A DNA stretch of 64,000 nt from positions 1 to 64,000 of the forward strand of contig NZ_BBWV01000003.1 of assembly GCF_000974785.1 (NCBI RefSeq), given 5' to 3'. Both the position numbers and the translations under genes were made by a program. This DNA is from Flavihumibacter petaseus NBRC 106054. GTDB lineage: Bacteria; Bacteroidota; Bacteroidia; Chitinophagales; Chitinophagaceae. Positions 11,194-18,914 of this stretch are shown in pieces (within the stretch, counting starts at the first letter, position 1; each line of letters starts with the position of its first letter). Under the pieces are notes generated by a model. The model worked only from the letters and a program-made list of their open reading frames with translations, had not been told where the DNA came from and did no database searches.

Positions 11194-12165
11194 TTACCCC
11201 GCTTTACTGTACCGATGCCGGTAATCCATAGGGGAGAGGCCGGTTATTTTTTTGAACACTTCCCGAAAGGCTTTGTCGTCAGTATAACCCACATCACTCA
11301 TCACCTCAAACACGGTCTTCCGGCCTTTTTCCAGTTCCTTTTTGGCGGCTTCGATCTTGACGCGCTGCAGGTATTCAACCGGAGTATTGCCCGTTGCCTT
11401 TACAAAGCGGCGGTCAAAGTTGCGACGGCTGATGGCGAGTTGTATTGCCAGTTTTTCAAAGGAGATCTTTTCTTCAATATTGTCTTCAATATACTGCTGT
11501 GCCCGGCTGATAATGTCGTCGCCATGACTCTTCTGCACATGAAAAATAGTAAAGGGGCTTTGTGTGGTGCGTTCGATATCGATCTGGAAAATCTTGGAGC
11601 AGAAGATAGCGGTCGGCCTGTCGAAGATCTTCTCCACGAGGTACAACATAAGGTTGAGAAAGGAATATCCGCCACCATTGGTATAAATGCCGTTTTCATC
11701 GGTAATGATTTTGTCTGCGGCAATTCTTACCCTGGGAAACCGCTCATGGAACTCGCTGACAACATTCCAGTGCGTGGAGCAAAGCCGGTCATCCAGCAGG
11801 CCGGTAGCGGCCAGCAGGAATGCGCCGGAACACATACTGGCAATCTCCGCACCGTCGCGGTATTGCCGGCTGATCCAGTCAATCAGGTTACTGTTTTGCC
11901 TGATCAGTTCTTCATAATCGCCAAACAGGGAAGGAATGATCAGGAGATCGGTTTTCTTAATCTGCCGGATATCGCCGGGATGTATGGCGAAATAATGCTG
12001 GTGGACAGGCAATTCCGAAACAAAACCTGCGATCTGTACTTTCAGCTTCGGTGGATTGCCGATGCGCTGCCAGTAGTCATCTGCTCTTGTAAGGATTTCA
12101 TAAGCGCCGGCAAGGCTGTTCAGGTTAATCTCGCCATCGGGCACCACCAGGGTGACATGTTTCAT
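11194..12165 (-). CDS. GlxA-family AraC-type transcriptional regulator
   Basis: 323 residues. The N-terminal 190 residues form a DJ-1/PfpI (class I amidotransferase-like) domain (VTLVVPDGEINLNSLAGAYEIL, a CSGAFLLAATGLLDD nucleophile-elbow region), followed by two AraC helix-turn-helices (ISRRNFDRRF; VGYTDDKAFREVFKKITG). GlxA-type regulators are cytosolic and often linked to amine or amino acid metabolism. It is convergent with the OprP-like porin with a 4-base gap. The start at 12165 removes a 15-residue non-conserved extension. Confidence 0.9.
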   Translation of the reverse strand: MKHVTLVVPDGEINLNSLAGAYEILTRADDYWQRIGNPPKLKVQIAGFVSELPVHQHYFAIHPGDIRQIKKTDLLIIPSLFGDYEELIRQNSNLIDWISRQYRDGAEIASMCSGAFLLAATGLLDDRLCSTHWNVVSEFHERFPRVRIAADKIITDENGIYTNGGGYSFLNLMLYLVEKIFDRPTAIFCSKIFQIDIERTTQSPFTIFHVQKSHGDDIISRAQQYIEDNIEEKISFEKLAIQLAISRRNFDRRFVKATGNTPVEYLQRVKIEAAKKELEKGRKTVFEVMSDVGYTDDKAFREVFKKITGLSPMDYRHRYSKAG

Positions 12166-12253
12166 GTCCTTATTTTTTACAAAATTAAGGATACATGGTG
12201 GCCAGATCAACCTGTTCCGGTGGCCGGTTTACACCCGGTTGCTGTATTTGCAA

Positions 12254-14551
12254 TCAGTAGGTGACTGTTACGCCACCACCCCAGCCCATATCGCTGTCGT
12301 AGTGGGTGGAGAGTGAAAAATATTTTGTGACGATATACCGCAGGCCGGTCATGTATTCCTTGTCGGTATTGACGTAGAAGTTGAAACGCAGGCGTTTGGT
12401 TACGGCAACATCTTCGCGGCCCAGCTGGAAACGCAACTTGCCCTCCGTATCCACCCGCGCATCCGCGCGGATCAGTAAGGGCAACACATACTGCACACCA
12501 AAGCAGATAACAGACCGCTCATCTTTGGTATTGGTCTGCCCGAACAGATTTTTGTCATCTTCCGCTTTGCCATGGTGTCCATATTCCCGCGACCGCCAAT
12601 CGTACCCGATATAGGGCATCAGCCACTGGTTGCGCCCGATGTACCGGCCGATATGGGTCTCGCTTTCATAACCTTTCTCTTTGTTGATGCCGAGCCGCCA
12701 TTCAGTATCAAATGACCAGCGCGTGTTGGCCAGCCGGATTTCACCGTCGCTGCCGTTGCTTTCCAGGCCGATCTGGGCAGACAGGAACAGCCTGCGGTCA
12801 TCGCGGTATACTTTCCGGATATTCTGCTGAAAACCCTGCTGGCTGTTGTGCGCGCTATAAGGCAGCATTTGTTGATCCTGTTGTTTGCCGGGGGTAACGG
12901 CAACGCCAGTCGTATCATAGCTGAAGATCCTGCCCATTCCGGCCATCATATGGTAAAGGATATGGCAATGGAAGAACCAGTCGCCGTATTGCTCCGAAGC
13001 GTGGAATTCGATGGTGTCGGTTTCCATGGGCATCACATCGAGTACAGATTTCAACGGTGCATTGTCTCCCTGCCCGTTCAGTACGCGGAAAAAGTGTCCG
13101 TGCAGGTGCATCGGGTGGCGCATCATTGAATTGTTGCGGATGATGATGCGGATGTTTTCCCCTTTTTTGATGAGGACCTTATCAGATTCAGAAACTGTTT
13201 TATTGTTGATGGTCCACACATAGCGGTTCATATTCCCTGTCAGTTCAAAAAGCATTTCCCTGACCGGGCCGTCCGGTAGTTTGGTACTGGCAGGTGCCCG
13301 CAGGAGGGAATAGTTCAACGCCGTGATCTCCTGGTTGCTGTCCACTAGCTCAGGGTACATTACCGTATTCATGTCCATCTGCTGAAGGCTCATGCTCATG
13401 CCCATATCATTCATGGTGCCGTCCATATTCATCATATCGTTCATCATCTTCATGCCTTCAAAATATTTCAGGCGGGGCAGGGCGCCGGCCGGATGCCTGC
13501 TGCCTTCACCCAGCCACAAGGACGTGCTTTTGGTACGGTCTTCAGCGGTAGCCATGAATTCATAGCTGCCGCTTGCAGGAATGGTCACGACAACATCATA
13601 GGTTTCAGATACGCCTACGATCAGGCGGTCTACTTCCACAGGTTCTACGTCCTGTCCGTCTGACGCCACCACGGTGATTTTTCCACCAGCCCAGCGCAAC
13701 CAGAAATAGGTGGAGGAGCTGCCGTTGATGACACGGAGCCGCACCTTGTCGCCTGCTTTATATAGCGGCGCTGTTTCTTCAGGTTTTCCATTTACCGTAA
13801 ACTGGTCATAGTAAACGTCGCTTACATCCATAGCCAGCATCCTTTTCCATTCGTTGTTGAATTTAACGCCCAGCTTTTTTTCGCGGCCCGCCTGCCAGTA
13901 ATCCTGGGCGGCATTTTTCCGGATTGCATACCAGTCGGTTGCGCTATGCAGTGATCGTTCGATCTGCTCCGGTTTTTCATTGGTCCAGTCGCTCAGCAAC
14001 ACGGTATGTTCATTTTTCCGTTCGCTGTTTCGCTTGTCGATAATGAATGCTCCGTACATGCCGGATTGTTCCTGCAGCATGGAGTGGGAATGGTACCAGT
14101 AAGTGCCGTTCTGCACGATCGGAAAGGAATAAACGAGGGTGCTGTGCGCTTTGATGGGTGTGGTGGTAAGATAAGGTACGCCGTCCTGTTCGTTGGGCAG
14201 GATGAGGCCATGCCAGTGGATGGAAGTCTCCATGTGCATCAGGTTGTGCACATGGAGTTCGGCAGTATCGCCTTCGGTGAAACGGAGTTCCGGGGCGGGG
14301 ATTGTACCGTTGATGGCAATGGCTTTGGCTTTTTTCCCGGTATAATTCACCACGGTATCTGTGATATACAGGTGGTAAATGATCCGGCCACCGGAAACTG
14401 TACGGAAAGGTTCACGGTGTGGCGTAGCCGACGCTGCCGGGCTATGCTGCGGCTGAGCATGCTGTGCCTGCAGCGGTCTGACAGGGAATATTGCTGTGAG
14501 CAGCAGGAGCAATGACGCCATGGGCGTTGCAAGAATGGAACTCCGTTTCAT
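12254..14551 (-). CDS. Multicopper oxidase (CopA-like) fused to CopB-like barrel
   Basis: 765 residues. Sec signal peptide to about residue 29. Cupredoxin domains with copper ligands HWHG (112-115), WYHSHS (152-157), HPMHLHGHFF (about 475) and HCHILYHMMAGM (about 527). A Met-rich segment near 370-395 resembles copper-binding loops. Periplasmic oxidation of Cu(I) is the usual role. From about residue 570 a further 195 residues resemble the outer-membrane CopB barrel (FLSAQIGLESN, DTEWRLGINKEKGYESETHIGR, YIGYDWRSREYG). CopA and CopB are normally separate genes. It is the last gene of the copper operon, 6 bases after the DUF3347 gene. Confidence 0.9.
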   Translation of the reverse strand: MKRSSILATPMASLLLLLTAIFPVRPLQAQHAQPQHSPAASATPHREPFRTVSGGRIIYHLYITDTVVNYTGKKAKAIAINGTIPAPELRFTEGDTAELHVHNLMHMETSIHWHGLILPNEQDGVPYLTTTPIKAHSTLVYSFPIVQNGTYWYHSHSMLQEQSGMYGAFIIDKRNSERKNEHTVLLSDWTNEKPEQIERSLHSATDWYAIRKNAAQDYWQAGREKKLGVKFNNEWKRMLAMDVSDVYYDQFTVNGKPEETAPLYKAGDKVRLRVINGSSSTYFWLRWAGGKITVVASDGQDVEPVEVDRLIVGVSETYDVVVTIPASGSYEFMATAEDRTKSTSLWLGEGSRHPAGALPRLKYFEGMKMMNDMMNMDGTMNDMGMSMSLQQMDMNTVMYPELVDSNQEITALNYSLLRAPASTKLPDGPVREMLFELTGNMNRYVWTINNKTVSESDKVLIKKGENIRIIIRNNSMMRHPMHLHGHFFRVLNGQGDNAPLKSVLDVMPMETDTIEFHASEQYGDWFFHCHILYHMMAGMGRIFSYDTTGVAVTPGKQQDQQMLPYSAHNSQQGFQQNIRKVYRDDRRLFLSAQIGLESNGSDGEIRLANTRWSFDTEWRLGINKEKGYESETHIGRYIGRNQWLMPYIGYDWRSREYGHHGKAEDDKNLFGQTNTKDERSVICFGVQYVLPLLIRADARVDTEGKLRFQLGREDVAVTKRLRFNFYVNTDKEYMTGLRYIVTKYFSLSTHYDSDMGWGGGVTVTY

Positions 14552-14557
14552 GTACGC

Positions 14558-15052
14558 TTATTGAATCGTCTCTTTAACTGAACCGCAGGTGAGCATGGCA
14601 CTGCCATAGTAAGGATTTTTAATTGCCTGTTCTGCACTGAGCCAGGAAGCTTTTTTCATAGGACAGTAAGCGATGTAGGCCGGAGCATCAACTTTGGACG
14701 CTTTTACCACCGGAATCAGGTTGTCTGACAGCACCTGGAATGCGGCCCGCTGTTTCGCAAGATCCTTTCCGGATGCAATAGCCTTACTGTTTTCCAGGAG
14801 TTTTTCCCTGACTGGTTTCAGGGCGGCCTGTTCACTGGCGGCGAGACTGCCGGTATTAATGTTCTGAAGCGCCCCGGTGAACGCTGTTGCAGCTTTGGCA
14901 GCAGCAGCGGGATCTCCGGCGACAAGGGCATTTTTGATACCATAGTATTGCTGCAGCAGGTTATTAACGGGTGTTTTATCCTGGCTGAAAGCCAGGAAGG
15001 GTACGGCAAGTGCCATCGTGGTCACGGCGAAGAATTGTCTGATCGTTTGCAT
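14558..15052 (-). CDS. DUF3347 secreted copper-associated protein
   Basis: 164 residues, Sec signal peptide ending AFSQ. Helical DUF3347 domain followed by the likely metal-binding tail YCPMKKASWL and, near the C-terminus, MLTCGSV. DUF3347 is frequently found with copper and efflux genes, where it is thought to bind Cu in the periplasm. It lies between the HMA chaperone and the multicopper oxidase in one operon. Confidence 0.85.
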   Translation of the reverse strand: MQTIRQFFAVTTMALAVPFLAFSQDKTPVNNLLQQYYGIKNALVAGDPAAAAKAATAFTGALQNINTGSLAASEQAALKPVREKLLENSKAIASGKDLAKQRAAFQVLSDNLIPVVKASKVDAPAYIAYCPMKKASWLSAEQAIKNPYYGSAMLTCGSVKETIQ

Positions 15053-15068
15053 GATAAATTGTTTGAGA

Positions 15069-15284
15069 TTAGTTTAATTTTTCTGCTTTGTAGCCGACGC
15101 TTTCCAGGGCGCTGACCACAGCGGTGGCTTCAGCAGCATCTTCCGCTTTTATGGTCAGTATTTTGGATGGGTCACCCGTATCTACTTTCCAGTTGTTTTC
15201 GCCAACGGTTTTATTCAGTACCGGTGTAACGGCGGCAATACAGCCTGCACATTTGATCGTCGTTTTGAATTGTATTGTTTCCAT
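15069..15284 (-). CDS. HMA-domain copper chaperone
   Basis: 71 residues, a lone heavy-metal-associated ferredoxin-like domain with the metal motif KCAGCIAAV (CxxC) in the first loop. It would pass Cu(I) to the P-type ATPase. The frame also offers a Met at 15299; the start at 15284 leaves room for the predicted promoter (-7 box at 15313-15320). This gene has its own copper promoter, 17 bases ahead of the DUF3347 gene. Confidence 0.88.
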   Translation of the reverse strand: METIQFKTTIKCAGCIAAVTPVLNKTVGENNWKVDTGDPSKILTIKAEDAAEATAVVSALESVGYKAEKLN

Positions 15285-15312
15285 ATGCTTAATTGACATT
15301 GTTTTGATGATG

Positions 15313-15375
15313 TAAAGGTACCCCGACGCCCCGGAGAGATTGTTATAGCATTTTTGCCTTCCTGTATATAATTAT
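15313..15375 (-). promoter_or_regulatory. Copper-operon promoter/operator 2 (upstream of chaperone)
   Basis: Minus strand, 5' to 3': ATAATTATATACA (15375-15363), 15 bases, TATAACAA (15347-15340), 19 bases, TACCTTTA (15320-15313) as a -7 box. The same parts at the same spacings precede the ATPase gene (17608-17670). TATAACAA sits where the -33 box should be, as expected for an activator-dependent promoter. Confidence 0.75.
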
Positions 15376-17592
15376 TCAGGGAAGGCGGCGCCATTTCAGG
15401 CGGAGGCTGTTGGTCACCACACTTACGGAGCTTAATGCCATAGCAGCACCTGCGATCATGGGATCCAGCAGGAAACCGTTGAACGGGTAGAGGACTCCGG
15501 CTGCAATGGGAATGCCGACCAGGTTGTAAATGAAGGCCCAGAAAAGGTTCTGGCGGATGGTTTGGACAGTGTGGCGGGAGAGGGTAAGGGCACGGGGAAT
15601 GGTGTTCAGGTCTGAAGTGATCAGCGTCATTTTCGCTACATCCATCGCGATGTCGGAGCCTTTGCCCATAGCGATGCTTACATCCGCCTGCGCCAGGGCC
15701 TGGGAGTCGTTGATACCGTCGCCCACCATAGCGACGATATCACCCTTGTGCTGCAGTTGCGCAACAAAGGCGGCCTTATCCGATGGCAGTACTTCCGCCC
15801 TGAATTGCCTGATCCCTGCTTCCCGCGCAACGGCTGCGGCAGTGTGCTGATTGTCGCCCGTGAGCATGTATACGCTAATGCCCTGGTCCTGCAAAGACCT
15901 GACCGCGGCAACTGAACCTGCCTTTACCTTGTCAGTGATGGCAATGATCGCTTCCAGTGATTTGTCTGCAGACAGCAACACCACTGTTTTCGCCTGTTGC
16001 TGCAGCGCCGTCAGTTGTGCCTGTTGTGCGGCACTCACAGGTACCCCCAGTTCCTGCAGCAGGGCAAGGTTGCCAACCCCCCAGGTTTTACCCGCATAAG
16101 TTGACCTGACGCCTTTGCCGGTGACACTTTCAACGGCACCCACGGTTATGGCCGGTAAGTTTTCTTTTCCGAGGTATTCCACTACAGCTGCTGCCAGGGG
16201 ATGCTCCGATTGTTGTTCAATAGCCAGGAGGATGGCTTTCGCCTGATCAGGTTCCCGGCTGGTGAGGATGAGGTCTGTTACTTCCGGTTTTCCTTCTGTA
16301 ATAGTTCCCGTTTTATCGAGAACTATGGCAGTAACCTTATGGGCCAGTTCCAGGCTTTCTGCATCCCGGATGAGGATATGATTTTCTGCACCCTTGCCGA
16401 CGCCTACCATAATCGCGGTGGGGGTGGCGAGCCCCAACGCACAGGGGCAAGCGATCACCAGTACGGTAACGGCAGTGAGCAGGGCATGGGTAAAGGCATT
16501 CTCGCCACCCCAGATCATCCAGGCGGCAAAGGTGAGCAGGGCAATGCCAATCACTACCGGTACGAAAATCCCGGCGATTTTGTCCACCAGTTTCTGGACT
16601 GGTGCTTTACTGCCCTGGGCTTCCTGTACCATTTTGATGATCTGTGCCAACACCGTGTCGCCACCAACTTTATCGGCCCGGAACCGGAAACTTCCCTTCT
16701 GGTTGATCGTGCCGGCAAATACCCGGGCACCGGTTGCTTTAAGGACTGCTACCGGCTCACCGGTGATCATACTTTCATCCACGTACGATGCGCCTTCGCT
16801 CACCATGCCGTCCACGGGAACTTTTTCGCCGGGCTTTACCAGCAGGATGTCATCCACTTTCACCTGGACGACCGGGATGTCTTCATAGGCGCCGTCCTGG
16901 TGAACGATCGTGACCGTGTCGGGCTGAAGGCCTATCAGTTTTTTCAGGGCTGCGGAGGTGCCTGCTTTCGCTTTCTCTTCCAGCAGCTTGCCCAGGGAGA
17001 TAAAGGCGATCACTACGGCAGCTGCTTCGAAATAAACATGCGGATGAATGCCTCTTGCGTGCCAGAATTCCGGATAGATAGTGTTGAAGACACTGAACAC
17101 CCAGGCCACGCCTGTGCTCAGGGCAACCAGGGTATCCATATTGGCCCGGCCATTCCGCGCCTGCTTCCAGGCATTGACAAAGAAATTGCGGCCGAAGTAA
17201 AATACTACCGGCGTCGACAATGCCATCATGATCCAGTTGGCGTAGGGAAGATCCATCCAGAACATCCCGATGATCACTACCGGAAGGGATAGTGCCCCGG
17301 CCCATACTGTGCGGCGCCTCAGGTTATGGTAATGTTGCTGTTGTGCAGTAGCGGTAATGGCTTTGCTGTTTTCCGTGTCGATCACCAGGTCGTAACCGAT
17401 GGAGCGTACCGTTTGCTGCAAGGAGGTTCTGGGAGCCTGTATCGGATCATATTCCACCCAGGCTGTCTGGCTCGCGAAATTGACCCCGGCATCTTTAACG
17501 CCTTTGGCTGATTTCAGCATGGATTCCACGCTCACTGCGCAGGCAGCACAGGTCATTTCGAGTACGGGAAAAGTTTCTTTTACAAGAGACAT
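15376..17592 (-). CDS. copA: Copper-exporting P1B-type ATPase
   Basis: 738 residues. N-terminal HMA domain with MTCAAC (13-18), eight transmembrane helices, the transport motif IACPCALGLATPTA in the sixth helix (near 380), actuator TGEP, phosphorylation site DKTGTITEG (near 425), SEHPLA in the nucleotide domain, and hinge GDGINDSQAL. This set is that of Cu(I) exporters. It is expected in the inner membrane pumping copper to the periplasm. A predicted copper promoter lies between it and the regulator gene upstream. Confidence 0.96.
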   Translation of the reverse strand: MSLVKETFPVLEMTCAACAVSVESMLKSAKGVKDAGVNFASQTAWVEYDPIQAPRTSLQQTVRSIGYDLVIDTENSKAITATAQQQHYHNLRRRTVWAGALSLPVVIIGMFWMDLPYANWIMMALSTPVVFYFGRNFFVNAWKQARNGRANMDTLVALSTGVAWVFSVFNTIYPEFWHARGIHPHVYFEAAAVVIAFISLGKLLEEKAKAGTSAALKKLIGLQPDTVTIVHQDGAYEDIPVVQVKVDDILLVKPGEKVPVDGMVSEGASYVDESMITGEPVAVLKATGARVFAGTINQKGSFRFRADKVGGDTVLAQIIKMVQEAQGSKAPVQKLVDKIAGIFVPVVIGIALLTFAAWMIWGGENAFTHALLTAVTVLVIACPCALGLATPTAIMVGVGKGAENHILIRDAESLELAHKVTAIVLDKTGTITEGKPEVTDLILTSREPDQAKAILLAIEQQSEHPLAAAVVEYLGKENLPAITVGAVESVTGKGVRSTYAGKTWGVGNLALLQELGVPVSAAQQAQLTALQQQAKTVVLLSADKSLEAIIAITDKVKAGSVAAVRSLQDQGISVYMLTGDNQHTAAAVAREAGIRQFRAEVLPSDKAAFVAQLQHKGDIVAMVGDGINDSQALAQADVSIAMGKGSDIAMDVAKMTLITSDLNTIPRALTLSRHTVQTIRQNLFWAFIYNLVGIPIAAGVLYPFNGFLLDPMIAGAAMALSSVSVVTNSLRLKWRRLP

Positions 17593-17607
17593 TTTGAAAT
17601 CTTTTTA

Positions 17608-17670
17608 CAAATTTCCCCCTACTGCCGTTGCCGGTTGTTATACGCTGACCCGGCTTTTGTATATAATTAT
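17608..17670 (-). promoter_or_regulatory. Copper-operon promoter/operator 1 (upstream of ATPase)
   Basis: Minus strand: ATAATTATATACA (17670-17658), 15 bases, TATAACAA (17642-17635), 19 bases, GAAATTTG (17615-17608) as a -7 box. The distal half overlaps the stop codon of the AraC regulator. Identical geometry to 15313-15375. Confidence 0.75.
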
Positions 17671-18230
17671 GACAGTTTGTCCAGCGGCCTGCGGCTGTTT
17701 TCCCGTGAGGCGCGAAAGGCTGATGGCGTGGTGCCTGTCACCTTTTTGAATTGCTGGGAGAGGTGCTGAACACTGCTGTAGCCGGTCTGGTCAGCAATTT
17801 CACTGAGGCTGAGTTCATCGTACCAGAGCAGTTCCTTTACGCGCTCGATACGTTGCAGGATCAGGTATTTTTCTATAGTGACACCCTCCACTGCGGTGAA
17901 CAGGGTAGTGAGGGAATGGTAATCCATTTCCAGTTTCTGCTCCAGGTACGCGGACATTTTCAGGTTGTGATCGTCTTCTCCCCGGTGCACCAGCGATACA
18001 ATCGCATTTTTGATCTTTTCCACTACCTGTGAGCGTTTATCATCCAGCAATTCGAAACCCAGCCCGGAAAGCCTTTGATTCAGTCGCTTTAATTCGGTTT
18101 CAGATGGCGTTTTAACCAGTTCCACTTCACCCAGCCGGACCATTTTCCAGGGCAGTTGCTGTGCTTCCAGTTCTTTTTCCACCGTCATGATACAACGATC
18201 GCAAACCATGTTCTTGATATATAATTTCAT
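17667..18230 (-). CDS. AraC-family regulator with metal-binding N-terminal domain
   Basis: 187 residues. The first 75 residues look like an HMA-type ferredoxin fold with a CxxC-type motif (NMVCDRCIMTVEKEL), and the rest is an AraC DNA-binding domain (SLSEIADQTGYSSVQHLSQQFKKVTG). As first gene of the copper operon it is the likely copper sensor and activator, binding the paired boxes before the ATPase and chaperone. The start at 18230 drops 11 non-conserved residues. A 12-bp inverted repeat lies 10 bases upstream of the start. Confidence 0.85.
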   Translation of the reverse strand: MKLYIKNMVCDRCIMTVEKELEAQQLPWKMVRLGEVELVKTPSETELKRLNQRLSGLGFELLDDKRSQVVEKIKNAIVSLVHRGEDDHNLKMSAYLEQKLEMDYHSLTTLFTAVEGVTIEKYLILQRIERVKELLWYDELSLSEIADQTGYSSVQHLSQQFKKVTGTTPSAFRASRENSRRPLDKLS

Positions 18231-18239
18231 CGGGGGTAG

Positions 18240-18280
18240 ACCTTTCGTGCCAAAGTTCAACAAATTCCGGCACGAAAGGT
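18240..18280. promoter_or_regulatory. 12-bp inverted repeat in divergent AraC/Crp region
   Basis: ACCTTTCGTGCC (18240-18251) and GGCACGAAAGGT (18269-18280) are perfect inverted arms with a 17-base spacer. It ends 10 bases from the AraC regulator start and 58 bases from the Crp start, so it may be an operator for either. Confidence 0.6.
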
Positions 18281-18338: not shown

Positions 18339-18914
18339 ATGATGATAAAAGCACTCCTCTCGAATCTGAACAAACATGTACAACTCACCGAAGCGGAGAT
18401 GGCAATCATAGAATCGACCTTTACGTTCAGAAAATTTCGCAGGAAGCAATACATACTCCAGGAAGGAGATATTGCCCGTTACGAAACCTTTATCGTAAAA
18501 GGTGTTACACGCACTTATGAAATAAATGCGGCGGGGCAGGAGCATGTGGTTCAGTTTGGTGCGGAAGACTGGTGGGTAGGCGACCTTTACAGCTTTCTTT
18601 CTGATACGCCCAGCAACTACAATATTGACTGCCTGGAAGACACCGAGGTGTACCAGATCACCAAAACCAACCTGGAGTTGCTTTATGAGGCTGTTCCAAA
18701 GCTGGAAAGACATTTCCGGATCATGATCCAGAATGCCTACATCGCGTTAACGCAGCGGGTGTCGGATACGCTGGCTAAATCCGCTACTGAGCGGTACCAG
18801 GCTTTCGTGTTGCGTTACCCGGAGATCGACCAGCGCGTCCCCGATCACCAGATAGCTTCTTATCTCGGTATTACACCGCAAAGTCTTAGCCGGCTGCGGT
18901 CTCGCATTCGTTAA
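18339..18914 (+). CDS. Crp/Fnr-family transcriptional regulator
   Basis: 191 residues. N-terminal cyclic-nucleotide-like sensor barrel (FRRKQYILQEGDIARYETFIVKG) and a C-terminal winged helix (DHQIASYLGITPQSLSRLRSRI). No cysteine cluster for an iron-sulfur centre. The ligand is unknown; this type is very common in Chitinophagaceae. It is divergent from the copper regulator. Confidence 0.88.
   Translation: MMIKALLSNLNKHVQLTEAEMAIIESTFTFRKFRRKQYILQEGDIARYETFIVKGVTRTYEINAAGQEHVVQFGAEDWWVGDLYSFLSDTPSNYNIDCLEDTEVYQITKTNLELLYEAVPKLERHFRIMIQNAYIALTQRVSDTLAKSATERYQAFVLRYPEIDQRVPDHQIASYLGITPQSLSRLRSRIR

Follow-up and report, generated by a model that had tools for sequence, protein, structure and literature searches.

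The copper gene cluster of Flavihumibacter petaseus NBRC 106054 contains two promoters that share one doubled DNA element. Judged from the sequences compared here, this element is very probably the operator of the regulator encoded beside it, a protein in which an HMA-like domain is joined to an AraC-type DNA-binding domain. We consider it likely that this linked HMA-AraC protein acts as a class II copper activator on promoters without a recognisable -33 box. The window is the whole stretch of DNA that was analysed (64,000 nucleotides of contig NZ_BBWV01000003.1), and all coordinates refer to it.

Two promoters in one copper gene cluster

The genes of the cluster, in the order in which they are read, are as follows.

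17667-18230, minus strand: regulator of 187 residues, with an HMA-like domain (about residues 1-62, MVCDRC) and an AraC-type DNA-binding domain (about residues 95-176), from profile matches and alignment
15376-17592, minus strand: copA, copper-translocating P1B-type ATPase (TIGR01511, 609.8 bits; cut-off 397)
15069-15299, minus strand: small HMA-like copper chaperone; the profile of its family can be aligned to the HMA domain of CopA (hhalign probability 77%)
14558-15052, minus strand: DUF3347 protein (Pfam) with a signal-like N-terminus, which suggests export
12254-14551, minus strand: multicopper oxidase (TIGR01480, copper-resistance type, 392.6 bits, under the cut-off of 478.95)

On its own, the small chaperone matches no model in Pfam or NCBIfam. 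From the arrangement of the genes, the DUF3347 gene is probably co-transcribed with the chaperone gene, and the multicopper oxidase gene is probably the last of the transcription unit. The oxidase has 765 residues and continues for about 220 residues past its best Pfam Cu-oxidase_2 stretch (431-544), with a tail that gives the impression, and only that, of an outer-membrane strand region. Directly behind it lies a second AraC-type regulator with a DJ-1/PfpI domain (GlxA/FtrA-like, 11194-12210). On the other side, the copper regulator adjoins a divergent Crp/Fnr-type protein (18339-18914), in which Pfam recognises only a cNMP-binding domain.

The two promoters consist of the following elements.

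17670-17658, minus strand: upstream half-site of the copA promoter, ATAATTATATACA; the half-site proper, AATTATATACA, occupies 17668-17658 and is kept in relatives
17647-17635, minus strand: downstream half-site of the copA promoter, CAGCGTATAACAA (core TATAACAA, 17642-17635), 21 bases on, in register, at the -33 place
17615-17608, minus strand: -7-like octamer of the copA promoter, GAAATTTG
15375-15363, minus strand: upstream half-site of the second (chaperone) promoter, ATAATTATATACA
15352-15340, minus strand: downstream half-site of the second promoter, AATGCTATAACAA (core TATAACAA, 15347-15340), at the -33 place
15320-15313, minus strand: -7-like octamer of the second promoter, TACCTTTA

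A preliminary description of this DNA had reported the arrangement ATAATTATATACA-N15-TATAACAA-N19-(-7 octamer) ahead of both copA and the chaperone gene; when re-read in the sequence, the spacings are indeed equal and the spacer bases differ. Several features had escaped that description. The two operator blocks form a direct repeat, ATnnnAyAACA, with a period of 21 bases; the first half-site of the copA promoter overlaps the regulator's stop codon (TAA, 17669-17667); the second promoter abuts the copA stop codon at 15376; and the operator layout recurs across the phylum.

The bipartite 36-mer is rare. Up to three mismatches were allowed, and it matches the window twice, both times with no mismatch (0 expected from 100 shuffles), with no further match elsewhere in the whole genome of 5,687,994 bases. 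A looser pattern at up to two mismatches finds 17 places in this genome versus 7 with a reversed control, namely the two window sites at 0 mismatches, one site at 1 mismatch and 14 at 2. The one-mismatch site was rejected, having no correctly spaced -7 box and, by eye, no recognisable copper gene adjoining it. Separately, a perfect 12-base inverted repeat (ACCTTTCGTGCC / GGCACGAAAGGT, 17 bases between the arms) lies at 18240-18280, just ahead of the regulator's start codon, with a -7-like AACTTTG box between its arms; the regulator gene itself may be controlled through this repeat.

According to PMC7366714 and PMC9723704, sigma-A promoters of Bacteroidota carry a -33 TTTG and a -7 TAnnTTTG, and the latter source places the -7 box at -12 to -5. 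This puts the second half-site at about -44 to -32, over the -33 place, and the predicted transcript starts near 17603 for copA and near 15308 for the chaperone gene. The promoters have the class II layout, in which a half-site overlaps the -33/-35 place at a fixed spacing to the core box.

The operator and the linked regulator in relatives

A regulator homologue (E 1e-15 or better) is present in 148 of 195 family genomes. The loci compared are the best 80 listed from named genomes, drawn from Chitinophagaceae, flavobacteria, sphingobacteria, cytophagales, Bacteroidales and a few others, including one labelled Ignavibacteria; within the stretch, 50 of these best 80 named loci encode a CopA that is at least 50% identical over most of its length. 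Duplicates were left out of the counts (L008, L012, L017 and L019, judged by length to be the contigs of L035, L038, L043 and L081; L063, whose match coordinates are those of L064; and L047, whose matches are those of L046), near relatives were retained (for example, the Flavobacterium loci L083, L099, L100, L102, L108 and L111), and the relatedness of genomes is uncorrected in the operator and co-occurrence counts alike. The second recognition helix splits the regulators into a Q type (mostly QHQ, the window's regulator included) and other types (mostly AYN and AHN).

Blind EM on 25 Q-type regulator-copA gaps recovered the window motif in 24 of them, with one miss (L078) and two weak sites (L101 and L057). 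When regions reached into neighbour genes, EM was captured by coding sequence, and for the non-Q loci it was instead restricted to the 87 bases after the regulator's stop codon. There it found the variant ATCTTACAA...AATTCCATAACA in 46 of 73 loci, with a log-likelihood of 665 versus 121-129 for five shuffled sets (single-base shuffles, 300 EM seeds versus 1000 for the real set). The other 27 have no site within these 87 bases, and a wider scan finds one further off in some. Compared by eye, the sites of the Q and other types agree in ATnnnAyAACA and its 21-base period; the difference is mainly in the nnn. The idea that A-type regulators have an unrelated operator was rejected, this repeat being common to both types. 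Ahead of the regulator gene itself, EM found no motif in the non-Q loci, and its strongest rows resemble Flavobacterium DUF3347 coding sequence.

We then scored the window and 78 of the best 80 loci in a leave-one-out scan, which drops the locus itself and keeps its relatives. At least one site above 16 bits is present in 70 of these 79 loci and none in 9, and none of 158 shuffled strands (two-base block shuffles) scores above 14 bits. The first half-site starts at most 4 bases from the regulator's stop codon in 38 of the 69 loci that have a plus-strand site behind the regulator. Pair identity is 0.64-0.82 in the half-sites and the -7 box, 0.35-0.45 in the inner spacer, and 0.29, near chance, in the 19-base spacer. 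Counts rise not only at gap 15 but also at gap 17 (13 at one mismatch), where we take the same sites to have been read in a shifted register. The preliminary description had proposed to check whether the motif accompanies this regulator type upstream of copA and HMA genes in relatives, and it does (24/25, 46/73 and 70/79). In the relative L037, from Chitinophaga pinensis, the operator matches with no mismatch. The full promoter pattern at up to two mismatches occurs at 56 places in 41 of 195 genomes (summed by eye), whereas the reversed control gives 21; because these places include chance matches, the numbers were not used as counts. Type matrices assign 62 of 70 left-out sites correctly and 8 wrongly, an outcome that fits recognition-helix residues reading the variable letters and that ancestry would give as well.

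The core promoter keeps its distance to the operator. A TTTG lies exactly 24 bases past the AACA in 42 of 46 non-Q sites, whose motif model was blind to the -7 box; for the Q type, whose model included that position, the count is 21 of 24. With at most one mismatch allowed, the -7 box is at its expected place in 41 of 46 non-Q and 23 of 24 Q-type sites. Near the -33 place, a TTG is present in 3 of 24 Q-type and 9 of 46 other sites and was not found in the remaining 21 and 37. This fixed TTTG spacing (42/46 and 21/24) agrees with the earlier placement of an operator half-site at the -33 place. The accompanying phrase, that the half-site replaces the -33 box, holds in part: there is no TTTG there, and 'replacing' exceeds the evidence. 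PMC7366714 reports the -33 box as TTTG in B. fragilis and as not identified genome-wide in F. johnsoniae, and for this reason we prefer to say that there is no TTTG.

The two-promoter layout recurs and is not universal. Of 23 loci in which at least 60 bases separate copA from the chaperone gene, 11 have a site in this gap; none of the 13 loci with a shorter distance has one, which is what a shared first promoter would predict for closely spaced genes. A second regulator copy, 36-45% identical to the first, stands behind it and ahead of copA in seven loci (L004, L013, L033, L040, L057, L078 and L109); where such a paralogue lies between regulator and copA in L033, L040 and L057, sites are found ahead of both. 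Many A-type loci (L024, L030, L051, L062, L068 and others) have a degenerate HMA-like stretch (ESEHCALIV...) that has lost its CxxC ahead of the CopA match, in L068 in one frame with the ATPase. A close full CopA is missing from 21 loci; there, judged by eye, 20 of 24 sites are followed by a first listed ORF with an HMA-type CxxC start; the exceptions are L068, with its degenerate HMA stretch ahead of the ATPase, L096 (two sites) and L097.

Counting as close copA a best E at or below 1e-220 (our own cut), we found one in 72 of 195 family genomes, and 71 of these also have the regulator (Fisher p 4.8e-10, uncorrected for ancestry). Among the family loci with the regulator, 27 of 29 score at least 27.6 bits, with matrices trained partly on them (those scoring L004-L032 include many of these loci), and no site was found in the stretch examined in the other two, L016 and L031. 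Close copA occurs in 1 of 47 genomes without the regulator (G105), whose regulator absence is uncertain because the assembly has about 430 contigs. No operator was found ahead of its copA; the loose pattern gives one chance-level match elsewhere in the stretch and none by eye. As a regulator-less control, 20 of these 47 genomes were searched for CopA, and 16 of them gave 17 copA-like loci. These score at most 8.5 bits, and the motif is thus absent, in keeping with the link between motif and regulator drawn in the preliminary description; their ATPases are distant (29-39% identity) and no copA orthologues, so the control is weaker than it looks. Conversely, 77 of 148 regulator-bearing genomes have no close copA, and the regulator family is therefore not copA-specific.

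A putative copper activator and its rivals

The window's regulator has an AraC/XylS DNA-binding domain (HTH_18, 63.6 bits, cut-off 33.6; HTH_AraC, 47.9 bits, cut-off 26.6). In its N-terminal 60 residues, the motif N-M-V-C-x-R-C is invariant across 57 aligned relatives. As a single sequence, this regulator shows no HMA domain to Pfam or NCBIfam, and in a direct profile comparison hhalign matches it only weakly to the HMA domains of the linked CopA (21% and 9%). The 57-member profile, however, matches AraC-type domains over residues 74-178 and, over residues 3-62, PDB HMA chains of copper ATPases and CopZ, CxxC included (best 1p6t, E 1.1e-6; 6ff2, E 0.0015), with zinc ATPase HMA domains among the weaker matches (2ofg, E 0.025). 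Because of these copper ATPase and CopZ matches, and despite the silence of Pfam and the weak hhalign result, we take the N-terminus to be a divergent HMA domain. By linkage, co-occurrence and domain make-up, the linked AraC-type protein with its N-terminal metal motif appears to be the best candidate for the activator, as had been proposed.

We propose the following mechanism. The sequences themselves show the domain composition, the operator with its spacing, the linkage and the co-occurrence; that this protein binds the operator, that copper is its ligand and is handed over to it, and that it activates rather than represses are inferences from them. The regulator would be a one-component metal sensor, in which a divergent HMA domain (M-x-C-x-R-C) is joined to an AraC-type DNA-binding domain. 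Two protomers would occupy the two direct half-sites ATnnnAyAACA, which lie 21 bases, or two helical turns, apart; the downstream one, at about -44 to -32, would take the -33 place of promoters that have a -7 TAnnTTTG and mostly lack a TTG near -33. Cu(I) would bind the regulator's CxxC, perhaps through handover from the chaperone, and the Cu(I)-loaded, DNA-bound regulator would recruit RNA polymerase as a class II activator. Consequently, copA would be induced from the first promoter, and the chaperone, DUF3347 and oxidase genes from its second copy.

The same protein and operator could also serve mainly for repression, with the apo-protein on the -33 half-site blocking RNA polymerase until copper releases it. 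A half-site at this place can block polymerase too, and the -7 box, with at most one mismatch at the expected place in 41/46 and 23/24 sites, fits this reading. The missing TTG near -33 (21/24 Q-type and 37/46 other sites) speaks against repression, because the core promoter then looks weak without help, and so does the layout of two direct half-sites two turns apart with the lower at -33, which is that of AraC-family class II activators such as AraC at araI1-I2. We regard repression as improbable and continue to favour activation by the HMA-AraC protein. The metal sensed is a separate matter, for the regulator may respond to another soft metal (Ag, Zn, Cd or Hg) or to several, copper being one inducer; this would change the ligand and not the layout, and it is compatible with the activator mechanism. 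HMA domains serve zinc too, the zinc ATPase match (2ofg) being a case in point, and 77 of the 148 regulator genomes lack a close copA. Yet the best HMA matches are copper ATPases and CopZ, the linked genes of the window encode a copper ATPase, a multicopper oxidase and a chaperone, and CopA at 50% identity or more accompanies 50 of the best 80 named loci. A different or broader ligand is thus a minority possibility, to be kept in mind, and copper is our preferred one.

The operator might instead belong to another regulator, whether an unlinked AraC protein, the GlxA-type AraC protein at 11194-12210 or the Crp/Fnr-type protein at 18339-18914, the linkage being incidental. The same window does encode a second AraC-type protein, but 38 of 69 loci have the start of the first half-site no more than 4 bases from the linked regulator's stop codon, the 17 copA-like loci from genomes that lack the regulator show no site, and a 21-base direct repeat differs from the palindromes that are the sites of Crp/Fnr proteins. 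We find this alternative very improbable. A stretch duplicated recently within the cluster, devoid of any regulatory role, would account for identical 13- and 8-base blocks occurring twice there; this reading is refuted by distant relatives with the same layout and spacer bases near chance, and by the different spacers of the two promoters, and we give it practically no weight.

Bacteroidota are abundant bacteria. One-component copper sensors of bacteria include CueR (of the MerR family), CsoR and CopY. In 60 family genomes, F. petaseus included, the CueR model TIGR02044 has no match above its cut-off, in line with the preliminary description, which had suggested an AraC-type switch in place of CueR or CopRS; weak MerR-type matches occur in 37 of the 60, and the model is strict, because it passes its own cut-off in just 1 of 14 control genomes. 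CsoR (PF02583) is present in 3 of the 60 and was not found in F. petaseus. The CopR/CusR model TIGR01387, which also passes in 1 of 14 control genomes, picks out two OmpR-type regulators of the F. petaseus genome, both at 232 bits (best 232.3) and so below the cut-off of 279.2, and this genome may have a CopRS/CusRS-like system.

We lean slightly towards a broader proposal, in which a copper-chaperone domain fused to an AraC DNA-binding domain forms a phylum-wide copper sensor. The chaperone, its own product, would hand Cu(I) over to it, and from two half-sites spaced by two turns it would activate promoters that have no -33 box. The letters of the half-sites would vary with the recognition helix, and the protein would count among the main cytosolic copper sensors of Bacteroidota; in the single family covered, the CueR model has no match above its cut-off and CsoR is uncommon. 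With the operator of the regulator family defined, copper sensing in Bacteroidota becomes directly testable. The system also offers a metal-controlled promoter of known layout and a clean case in which to study activation at Bacteroidota promoters that have no -33 box.

Comparison with known systems

In the open-licence literature searched, we found no description of this regulator or its operator, and the words 'copper' and 'AraC' are absent from the main text of PMC9723704 and PMC7366714.

AraC at araI1-I2 is a class II activator that uses direct half-sites two turns apart, the lower one at a promoter box, and a 21-base period is the distance expected of an AraC-family dimer. The system described here is like the AraC/XylS class II activators in its AraC-type DNA-binding domain and in its direct half-sites 21 bases apart, the lower of which overlaps the upstream promoter box. 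It differs in its ligand domain, which is HMA-like where that of AraC is a sugar cupin, and in its promoter, which is of the Bacteroidota -7 TAnnTTTG kind and mostly has no TTG near -33. With CueR, CsoR and CopY it would have in common a presumed cytosolic sensing of copper and the control of copA and the chaperone, whereas its DNA-binding fold and operator are unrelated to theirs. In sequence profile, residues 3-62 of the regulators resemble CopZ and the HMA domains of CopA-type ATPases, including the CxxC; in contrast to these, the regulator's domain is joined to a DNA-binding domain and shows invariant positions of its own (NMVCxRC, G and GF). Finally, like the sigma-A promoters of Bacteroidota, these promoters have a -7 box at a fixed place, and unlike them, they have an operator half-site that ends where the TTTG would stand.
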